Positions 3,319 to 35,165 of a stretch of 35,165 nucleotides of DNA are shown piece by piece. Position numbers and translations under genes: made by a program. Origin of the DNA: an uncultured Flavobacteriales bacterium (GTDB taxonomy: Bacteria; Bacteroidota; Bacteroidia; Palsa-965). The notes below the pieces were generated by a model. That model worked only from the letters and a program-made list of their open reading frames with translations, was not told where the DNA came from and did not search any database. Each line of letters opens with the position of its first letter. Position 1 is the first letter of the stretch. The stretch covers positions 1 to 35,165 of the forward strand of contig CAIQQJ010000054.1 in assembly GCA_903873905.1 (NCBI GenBank). Direction: 5' to 3'.

Positions 3319-4488
3319 ATGGGGAAGGATAAGGAAATTCGAATTTTTCTCACACCATCGCATATCTGCACGGTTTACTTGAGCATGCTCGCTAGGGAAA
3401 CAAAAACAGAAGACCAGATCGACATTTTATTCATTGATGCAAGCAGACGCAAACAAGGCCTCATCAATGTAATTACTGAAACTTCAAAACTGCACAATTG
3501 GAATTTATTTCATGACTTTTCGATTGTAGAAAGTGAAGAACTTGATTACACTCCTTCTACACGTAAATCATTTACGAGAAAAATAAAAAATTGGCCGATC
3601 GTAAAAAATATTTACAACTTTTTACTTCAGCGTCATTTCAAAAGTGTTGATCAAAAATACAGAACTGAATTACAACACCTTCTTGCCGACTATTCAATTG
3701 CAGATGCAAAGGTTAGTTTCTTCATGCTCACACAAACCTATTTGAATCGTCCCTTACAGCAGCTGTTTCCAAAAGCAAGCATCAATTATGCTGAACATGG
3801 AATAGGAGATTATTACCACATTCTAGATCCAAATATTTCAAAAGGGAATTTTTATTGCGTTTTTTCAGAAGCCTACAAACGATATTTGGAAAAAACAGGC
3901 CATTCAACAGATTGGGTAAAAGCCTTGCCTCAAATTGCCTCCTTCCCCACTCTTGCAGGTGAATTGTTGGTCAATTACAATAAGTCAATTCGTTTGGATC
4001 AATTAATTGTTCCAGAAAAACCCTGCGTGTTTGTTTTGTTGGAAGCAGTAGATATGTATCAAGTCAATTATTCTTTCTGGACGGAATATCTTGATCAAAT
4101 ATTTTCACAACTTGAAACTCCAGGAAAATACCATTACCTCTTGAAACCACATCCTATGCAATCGGAGGCATCTTTGATTGCAACAAAAAAACATCTAGAA
4201 GATTTAGGCTACTCGTACACATTGTTAAATCATCCTACATTGATCAATGCGAGTGCAGAAGTTATTTTTTCATTTTGGAAAGACAAAACAGAACACGTTT
4301 TCTGTTTATTCTCATCAGGCTGTTTCTATCTTTCAAAATTATATGCGGGAGAAAAAATAAAATTCTGGTATTCCACAGCATTCATGAGTAAGCATCTTGG
4401 AAATGCTCCACCGCAATTCTATAAATCATTTACAGAATCACGAAAAATGATTGAGGAAGTTTTTGCTGAAAATTGCATTCCGTTTTGA
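3319..4488 (+). CDS. Polysialyltransferase/sialyltransferase-like glycosyltransferase (candidate nonulosonate transferase)
   Basis: This 389-residue soluble protein has no signal peptide. Three features recall bacterial sialyl- and polysialyltransferases (GT38/GT52-like GT-B enzymes): an acidic-Gly-type motif YAEHGIGDYYH near residue 158 (family form D/E-D/E-G), an HP motif LLKPHPM near residue 275, and a Ser-rich motif CLFSSGC near residue 331. In those families these act in catalysis and CMP binding. The middle residue of the first motif is His instead of an acid, so the match is imperfect. The gene starts 1 nt after the flippase and lies opposite CMP-nonulosonate and NeuB-type genes, which makes a CMP-sugar donor plausible. 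It could instead be another GT-B enzyme. Moderate confidence. Confidence 0.55.
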   Translation: MGKDKEIRIFLTPSHICTVYLSMLARETKTEDQIDILFIDASRRKQGLINVITETSKLHNWNLFHDFSIVESEELDYTPSTRKSFTRKIKNWPIVKNIYNFLLQRHFKSVDQKYRTELQHLLADYSIADAKVSFFMLTQTYLNRPLQQLFPKASINYAEHGIGDYYHILDPNISKGNFYCVFSEAYKRYLEKTGHSTDWVKALPQIASFPTLAGELLVNYNKSIRLDQLIVPEKPCVFVLLEAVDMYQVNYSFWTEYLDQIFSQLETPGKYHYLLKPHPMQSEASLIATKKHLEDLGYSYTLLNHPTLINASAEVIFSFWKDKTEHVFCLFSSGCFYLSKLYAGEKIKFWYSTAFMSKHLGNAPPQFYKSFTESRKMIEEVFAENCIPF

Positions 4489-31471: not shown

Positions 31472-31479
31472 TACATTTG
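31472..31479 (+). promoter_or_regulatory. -7 box (TACATTTG) of the SRP RNA gene
   Basis: Exact TAnnTTTG match ending 4 nt before the first paired base of the SRP RNA. The expected -33 region is occupied by the tandem array. Confidence 0.6.
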
Positions 31480-31483
31480 TCCC

Positions 31484-31578
31484 GGGTAAGTCTTATACAA
31501 CCAGCTCCTGTTGACTCCCCCAGGACCGGAAGGTAGCAAGGGTAAATGGTTGAGCGGTGTGATGTAAGTAGCTTACCC
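31484..31578 (+). ncRNA. ffs: Bacterial signal recognition particle RNA (small type)
   Basis: The diagnostic apical loop reads CAGGACCGGAAGGTAGCAAG (31521-31540), with the GGAA tetraloop and the Ffh-binding symmetric loop. GGGTAAG at 31484 pairs with CTTACCC at 31572-31578 to close the hairpin. Inner stem strands CCAGCTCCTG and AGCGG/GGTTGAG fit the rest. The length of about 95 nt is normal for the small bacterial type. It scaffolds Ffh for cotranslational targeting to FtsY. Six T residues after the 3' end act as terminator. Confidence 0.93.
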
Positions 31579-31586
31579 ATTTTTTG
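31579..31586 (+). terminator. T-run ending the SRP RNA
   Basis: The closing stem of the SRP RNA is followed by ATTTTTTG, a minimal intrinsic terminator. Confidence 0.55.
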
Positions 31587-34154: not shown

Positions 34155-34778
34155 ATGTTACTACGAATAAATCCCGACAAGCCAGATTCTGAATCTATTC
34201 GAAAGGCGGCTGCTGTTTTGCGGGCTGGAGGCATTATCATTTATCCAACGGATACGGTTTATGGAATTGGTTGCGATATAACACAACCGAAGGTGATTGA
34301 AAAATTATGCCAATTCAAGGGCGTAAAACTTGCTGATGCTAATTTCTCCATCATTTGTCACGATCTTTCCCATCTTTCCGATTATGCAATGCCCATTTCA
34401 ACATCGGTTTTCCGTGTTTTGAAAAAAGCCTTGCCGGGTCCGTATACCTTCATTCTTGCCGCGAATAATAATGTTCCGAAAATTTTCCAAAGCAAGAAAA
34501 AATCGGTTGGAATTCGTGTTCCTGCCAATCTGATTGTGCAAGCCATTGTGAAGGAACTGGGAAATCCGATTGTTTCCTCCTCTCTTCACGATGAAGAAGA
34601 TGAAATGGTAGATTATTATGCCGATCCTGAATTAATTTATGAAAAATATCAGGACAAGGTTGAATTGGTTGTGAACGGCGGTTACGGAAACATTGAAGCC
34701 TCGACAGTTATTGATTTGACGAAGGGTGAATTCTTGGTAGTGCGGAAGGGTTTGGGAGAAGTTGACAATTTGTGGTAG
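34155..34778 (+). CDS. Sua5/YciO/YrdC-family protein, YciO-like (L-threonylcarbamoyladenylate synthase type)
   Basis: 207 residues, matching the length and layout of E. coli YciO more closely than TsaC. IRKAAAVLRAGGIIIYPTDTVYGIGCD covers the nucleotide-binding start of the family, ALPGPYTFILAAN and KKKSVGIRVPAN the core, and NGGYGNIEASTVIDLT near the end the last strand. Family members make threonylcarbamoyl-AMP for tRNA t6A; YciO's own role is less certain. It lacks the C-terminal Sua5 domain. An 8-nt-period array begins 10 nt after the stop. Confidence 0.88.
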   Translation: MLLRINPDKPDSESIRKAAAVLRAGGIIIYPTDTVYGIGCDITQPKVIEKLCQFKGVKLADANFSIICHDLSHLSDYAMPISTSVFRVLKKALPGPYTFILAANNNVPKIFQSKKKSVGIRVPANLIVQAIVKELGNPIVSSSLHDEEDEMVDYYADPELIYEKYQDKVELVVNGGYGNIEASTVIDLTKGEFLVVRKGLGEVDNLW

Positions 34779-34788
34779 AGGGGAAATT

Positions 34789-34828
34789 GAGATTCGAAGA
34801 TTCGAGGATTTAGGAATCCATTGATTTA
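34789..34828. repeat. 8-nt-period array (gagattcg/aagattcg/aggattta)
   Basis: Five 8-mers follow the YciO-like gene and end just before the terminator of the minus-strand gene. Confidence 0.6.
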
Positions 34829-34829
34829 G

Positions 34830-34865
34830 AAAAAAAAGCCCGTCAAAGCTTATGCAGTGACGGGC
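34830..34865 (-). terminator. Rho-independent terminator of the minus-strand right-edge gene
   Basis: On the minus strand GCCCGTCA pairs with TGACGGGC around a 12-nt loop and is followed by eight T. The stem overlaps the last codons and stop of the gene. Confidence 0.8.
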
Positions 34866-35165
34866 GGTGCGGAGAAGGAGGGATCAGGTCGAACACCTTT
34901 GAGGAGGATTTCGAGATTTTGAGTGGTGTTATAATTGTAATGGGAAAAAGTTTTTGTATTTCCCATTACAATTGCACAAGAGGCGTTAAAGGTGTTTTTT
35001 GATTTATTTGCTCTATAAATACTTCTTACCAGTTGCAAGGCATCACGCTTCATATCCTGGCCAAGGGTATATTTATAATCTTTAGGAAAATCTTTAGTGT
35101 ATTCAAATATCTTTAAAATCAATTTATATGTATCCCTGTAAACAGGTAAATCATAGTATAGAGCC
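34850..35165 (-). CDS. Avd-like four-helix-bundle protein, rearranged 3' half (5' partial)
   Basis: The frame is open through the right edge, so a TTG at 35122 is not the start. The first visible 57 residues contain YYDLPVYRDTYKLI, FEYTKDFPKDYKYTLG and LVRSIYRANKSKN. This closely follows the start of the Avd/four-helix-bundle family that accompanies diversity-generating retroelements. The next two helices of the family are missing. Instead 47 residues (AIVMGNTKTFSHYNYN through GVRPDPSFSAPPVTA) are encoded by sequence full of inverted repeats. It looks like a truncated or recombined gene; a short functional variant cannot be excluded. Any reverse transcriptase would lie outside the window. Confidence 0.6.
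   Translation of the reverse strand, partial: ALYYDLPVYRDTYKLILKIFEYTKDFPKDYKYTLGQDMKRDALQLVRSIYRANKSKNTFNASCAIVMGNTKTFSHYNYNTTQNLEILLKGVRPDPSFSAPPVTA
34892..34996. repeat. Nested inverted repeats inside the Avd-like gene
   Basis: Outer arms AACACCTTT (34892-34900) and AAAGGTGTT (34988-34996) enclose perfect 14-bp arms ATTGTAATGGGAAA (34934-34947) and TTTCCCATTACAAT (34959-34972) with an 11-nt loop. The unit is 105 bp and starts where similarity to the Avd family is lost. No target duplication was seen. Confidence 0.75.

Follow-up and report, generated by a model that had tools for sequence, protein, structure and literature searches.

What is an avd-like reading frame doing at the very end of a contig, with a 3' half that no longer resembles avd and with the rest of a retroelement nowhere in view? 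The window, by which we mean the whole stretch of DNA that was analysed, is one entire contig (35,165 bp) of a 3.93-Mb assembly that is divided into 181 contigs and rated 100% complete; its relatives point to the Bacteroidia. An earlier note had proposed, from the letters alone, that its right end might be the edge of a diversity-generating retroelement (DGR), a bacterial element that introduces mutations into its own target genes and has avd as an accessory gene. The features considered here are listed in Table 1.

Table 1. Features of the window.
Feature	Position	Strand	Remarks
DGR avd 5' half, codons 1 to ~57	34993..35165	minus	by homology; first two bases of the ATG off contig
Non-homologous tail of the frame, FNASCAIVMGN...GVRPDPSFSAPPVTA-stop	34850..34992	minus	past the junction; without matches
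Stretch of 105 bp, ends formed by 9-bp inverted repeats AACACCTTT/AAAGGTGTT	34892..34996		arms 34892-34900 / 34988-34996
Perfect 15-bp inverted repeat, 11-nt loop	34933-34947 / 34959-34973		one copy in genome
GC-rich terminator-like hairpin, 8-bp arms, T8 behind	34830..34865	minus	arms 34838-34845 / 34858-34865; overlaps the stop codon
sua5/yrdC, L-threonylcarbamoyladenylate synthase	34155..34778	plus	TIGR00057, 4.7e-54; ordinary convergent neighbour
Bacteroidales small SRP RNA	31477-31582	plus	RF04183, 101.5 bits
Intergenic 17-bp perfect inverted repeat, 3-nt loop	13827-13863		probably a bidirectional terminator

The frame begins as a DGR avd gene

The minus-strand frame at the contig end comprises 104 codons and stays open from 35165 until the stop codon at 34850-34852; the contig has as its last base the G of the avd start codon, ATG. 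Residues 12-57 matched the Pfam family bAvd (1.7e-8; 7-52 of the 107 profile positions covered) and residues 6-58 matched NCBIfam DivGenRetAVD (4.5e-8), both with scores below the curated cut-offs because half of the domain alone is present. Identity to the avd genes of DGR loci reached 93% for amino acids (residues 1-57) and 88% for nucleotides. Across 80 such loci the match nearly always spanned residues 1-57 and stopped there. The 5' half of the frame is a genuine DGR avd, as the earlier note had supposed for its N-terminal part.

A full Avd is a four-helix bundle of about 108-128 amino acids; here it is incomplete, homology reaching no further than codon ~57 out of ~114. The cut protein would retain about two of its four helices, and a working Avd should not form. 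The remaining half has neither stops nor frameshifts, and its Ka/Ks relative to related genes was 0.02-0.04 over 55 codons (0.036 against the stub at locus L065, described below), a pattern that points to strong purifying selection until recently. Such a low ratio in a clean frame implies either that the truncation is young or that the avd stub is still constrained for another reason.

The junction and the unrelated tail

DNA identity with intact avd genes ended abruptly at avd nt 165-175, corresponding to window positions 35003-34993, so that the 3' half has indeed been replaced. The tail beyond this junction gave no convincing match in its own genome, in 59 relatives, in about 100 avd loci, or in phages or plasmids, and a phage or plasmid source was dropped for lack of a match in either. 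That it might instead be what remains, at the 3' end, of a native gene facing sua5 was rejected too: genomes of the same genus had no match to it, and synteny downstream of sua5 is not conserved within the genus.

The G-V/F-R-P stretch ahead of the terminal hairpin had been likened to the end of a DGR variable region (VR) or template (TR), a comparison that was not supported. Aligned to a bank of about 60 TRs the tail scored 16.0, where genuine VRs mostly score 50-120 and the shuffled tail had a mean of 12.6 and a maximum of 18.2, with 8 of 200 shuffles reaching 16.0. Moreover, VRs among the avd relatives end in ...VRAVRAF-stop followed by a ACCGCGAAGCGGTC-type hairpin, and these ends are located upstream of avd. 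The 'GVRP' at this position is most likely a coincidence of sequence, and the tail was rejected as a VR or TR end.

The inverted repeats in the tail are real. The perfect repeat first described as 14 bp measures 15 bp; dinucleotide shuffles of the region contained inverted repeats of 11 bp at most (200 shuffles), and the folding z-score was -5.9. The 9-bp repeats and the GC-rich hairpin at the end of the frame were both confirmed. The hairpin sits between the avd stub and the convergent sua5; its loop of 12 nt exceeds the limit of 8 set in the terminator scanner, which did not list it. The 105-bp stretch bounded by the 9-bp repeats begins at the avd junction and encloses the 15-bp repeat, which makes it MITE-like in shape. 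No second copy of the 15-bp palindrome was found in the genome at up to 3 mismatches, so it was rejected as a dispersed repeat, and no target-site duplication was seen at the 105-bp stretch. With terminal repeats present, a single-copy palindrome and no duplication, the stretch falls short of a MITE.

Most related avd genes belong to DGR cassettes

When 84,980 species genomes were scanned, 80 loci were retrieved as closest relatives. All 80 were DGR-type avd genes, most of them lying between a VR target and a TR with its reverse transcriptase (RT). In most relatives the order was a Lcl_C-type target ending in ...VRAVRAF, a hairpin, avd, TR and RT, with the TR ~480-660 nt after the start of avd and an RT carrying GLPIGNLTSQ-type motifs. 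VR and TR differed mainly at adenines (22 of 23 mismatches at L052, 18 of 19 at L055 and 19 of 21 at L080).

Cassettes with Lcl_C/DUF1566 targets were found in Bacteroidota, Chlorobiota, Methylococcales, Legionellales and Spirochaetota (for example L054, L055, L056 and L073). The window resembles them in its avd 5' half, which is ~80-93% identical in amino acids to an avd that, in the cassettes, comes after the VR target and its hairpin; it differs in that avd breaks off at codon ~57, neither TR nor RT follows, and the target side is out of view. The relatives are spread over Bacteroidota, Chlorobiota, Gammaproteobacteria and Spirochaetota, which is consistent with horizontal spread. No close avd was found in the same-genus or same-family genomes searched, suggesting that the DGR was probably acquired. 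A viral origin was rejected: IMG/VR gave one distant avd relative alone, and matches to phage records were below 60%.

No other DGR components were found in the assembly

The earlier note had proposed a search for an RT and for near-repeats, and both searches of this assembly were negative. A DGR-RT query gave no match, while the positive controls (genomes G042 and G111) were matched in the same search. No near-repeat of 34780-35165 and no TR with adenine-specific differences was present in the assembled genome, nor was there a DGR-type target elsewhere in the assembly. Searches with bAvd and avd returned this locus and distant four-helix proteins; the avd 3' half turned up nowhere else. These results, in which both RT and TR are missing, refute a complete DGR in this assembly but not a remnant of one; of the proposed retroelement edge, the part that stands is a DGR remnant, its relatives being DGR-type avds in every case. 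Given an assembly in 181 contigs, an RT might conceivably lie on an unbinned contig.

Two other proteins of the genome were considered and rejected. The sole RVT_1 match was a retron-like RT on contig C25 (1-1011, minus strand) with QGSPTSP, YADD and VTG motifs, and it was rejected as the DGR RT; on this 4.1-kb contig it adjoins a gene for a DnaB-helicase-like ATPase, an arrangement that suggests a phage or mobile island. A Lcl_C protein on contig C61 was examined as the missing target. Both of its Lcl_C domains lie within a larger protein that has a C-terminal sorting-type domain and no VR end, and no avd lies behind it.

Truncated avd genes recur behind VR targets

Cut avd stubs directly after VR targets turned out to recur, with ~20 independent junctions. 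The arrangement of VR target, hairpin, avd 5' fragment and unrelated DNA was seen at L065, L070/L074, L084, L088, L108, L149, L152, L153, L155 and L160, and the window fits the latter part of this description, with an avd 5' fragment that is followed by unrelated DNA and no TR or RT behind. The cut fell at avd nt 165 in L065, 192 in L070/L074, 182 in L084 and 194 in both L088 and L108. The genome scan gave further stubs at L095 (cut at nt 224, with a stop) and L094 (two stubs), as well as short decayed stubs in Chlorobiaceae, cut at about nt 125. Stops or frameshifts were present in other stubs or avd genes (L095, L127, L139, L152 and L153).

In a class-wide survey, for which 395 Bacteroidia genomes were drawn evenly and searched with full-length avd, 23 genomes gave an avd match and in ~9 of them the copy was truncated, so that such loss looks common. 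Besides this genome the stubs came from G393, G321, G278, G113, G141, G281, G230 and G196. A VR precedes nearly all stubs; none that was convincing was found at the class-survey stubs L146 and L144. No DGR-type RT was found in 12 stub genomes, this one included, in searches that matched the G042 and G111 controls.

The closest counterpart is L065, from the Flavobacteriales MAG RH-15aug16-345. Its avd is cut 4-10 nt from the window junction, and TR and RT are absent both nearby and from its genome. It differs in that the upstream VR target is visible, with 32 of its 36 differences from the nearest TR at adenines, and in a tail unrelated to that of the window. A single inherited event was rejected on account of the offset junctions and unrelated tails; as far as the sequences tell, the two junctions probably arose independently.

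Two routes to stubs are visible. In Chlorobiaceae, stub-tagged VRs on three contigs differed mainly at adenines from the TR of an intact DGR on that contig (25 of 27 mismatches at L083:8973, 21 of 23 at L091:6992 and 21 of 24 at L092:8649), which marks the stub-tagged target as a remote target diversified in trans. The second route is deletion, represented by the 12 stub genomes that gave no such RT and by loci in which avd is fused straight to RT (from avd codon ~59 to RT codon ~175 in L130, and from codon 15 to codon ~265 in L074:7478). The window most likely belongs to this second group.

Chlorobiaceae loci occurred in pairs (L083:4998 and 8973, L091:2976 and 6992, L092:4998 and 8649, L071:4998 and 7191), each consisting of a target locus with full-length avd and a second VR target with a decayed avd stub of ~125 nt, behind which lies the start of a common ATPase-like gene. 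Separately, L138 (G274:C1, 1501-1836) has an intact full-length avd that follows a VR target, and its genome, assembled in 7 contigs, gave no DGR RT, indicating that loss of TR and RT can precede loss of avd.

Origin of the truncated avd

The reading that we favour, with a probability of roughly two in three, is that the window ends in the relic of a degraded DGR from which the avd 3' half, TR and RT have been deleted. The ancestral order on the minus strand would have been a target gene with its VR, a hairpin, avd, TR and RT. A deletion or rearrangement would then have removed the last two together with the avd 3' half and fused codon ~57 of avd with chromosomal DNA unrelated to it, through which the frame would continue by chance to the terminator-like hairpin. 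As the contig ends in the avd ATG, the target and VR that precede avd in relatives would be expected just past the contig end, and we propose that they are frozen because the template and the enzyme that rewrite the VR are gone. This left side is reconstructed from the relatives, since target and VR fall outside the window and the assembly holds no DGR-type target; the deletion and the loss of function are likewise inferred. The clean frame of the stub and its very low Ka/Ks also speak against this reading, which then needs either a recent loss or a stub that is still constrained. The avd 5' half, the abrupt junction, the absence of RT and near-repeat from the assembly and the recurrence of this anatomy elsewhere are direct observations.

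Alternatively, a target with its VR, hairpin and 5' avd fragment might have been copied from a complete DGR that is still in the genome, and be diversified in trans. The Chlorobiaceae VRs behave in this way (L083, L091 and L092), a stub and an intact RT occur together in genome G396 (L070), and remote variable proteins are documented in cyanobacteria (PMC7517822) and in Thiohalocapsa (PMC10907252). An assembly of 3.93 Mb that is rated fully complete and has no DGR RT, no TR-like near-repeat and no DGR-type target argues against such a satellite here; we regard it as unlikely, and as less likely than a deletion relic.

The junction might also be a chimeric join, made by the assembler at a repeat, that set avd beside unrelated sequence while an intact avd lies elsewhere. 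The break is less than 175 bp from the contig end, where assemblers fail, and DGR cassettes contain repeats (VR and TR). The avd sequence in which the junction lies is unique, however; the genome yielded no other avd 3' half, and near-identical anatomy occurs deep in long contigs (L065 in 176 kb and L108 in 187 kb), all of which makes an artefact very unlikely. Highly improbable, finally, is a MITE-like insertion at avd codon ~57 with later loss of the rest: the 105-bp stretch does begin at the junction with inverted-repeat ends, L116 does carry an insertion in avd and in Thiohalocapsa MITE-like arrays took the place of DGR parts (PMC10907252), but the genome gave one copy of the palindrome, no target-site duplication is present and avd does not resume on the far side.

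The L116 insertion (4124-4347) is 200-odd bp long, has inverted ends GGGCACCTCTAAAA/TTTTAGAGGTGCCC and splits avd at codon ~48; an AGAAG-like duplication accompanies it, with VR, TR and the remainder of avd retained on both sides.

Clustering of the junctions

Half of the independent stub junctions (10 of 20) fell within avd nt 161-194, a 34-nt interval, with a post hoc scan p of 0.002; the window junction aside, all nine class-survey junctions lay no further along than nt 194. The sample was partly gathered by homology to this stub and the region is A-rich, which leaves the clustering a lead only. That DGR target modules preferentially come away, whether by being copied elsewhere or by losing their machinery, at a boundary marked by the segment from the VR hairpin to about avd nt 160-195, and that the stub is more than debris, is a long shot. 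If it were true, a cis element or a site prone to recombination may lie in the DNA directly 3' of the VR.

Implications for DGR targets

Several reports describe DGRs that have come apart. In cyanobacteria, variable proteins are dispersed and the machinery removed (PMC7517822). Thiohalocapsa has degenerate DGR loci with MITE-like hairpins in place of RT or TR, and trans diversification (PMC10907252). Treponema denticola isolates without RT and TR still hold target genes (PMC4891356). Roux et al. (2021) noted that their own survey was blind to remote targets (PMC8144416). The window resembles Thiohalocapsa PB-PSB1 in that machinery is missing or pseudogenised and hairpin-rich, MITE-like sequence replaces components, and differs in that the remaining VRs of PB-PSB1 were shown, some of them diversified in trans, while no VR or RT is visible here. 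Like the T. denticola isolates, it has remnants of a DGR whose core was lost; avd is absent from the main text of that paper. We found no paper in the open-access literature that names avd stubs as a footprint. The loss of DGR parts and the existence of remote targets were already known; what is new here is the recurrence of avd stubs after VR targets.

Taken on its own, this window is of small significance. Surveys that start from the RT overlook targets that have lost their machinery or lie apart from it, and an avd stub directly behind a VR is a simple tag by which orphan or remote targets of this kind can be found in sequence data. Avd stubs also let one ask whether deletion of the DGR core routinely 'freezes' hypervariable proteins.
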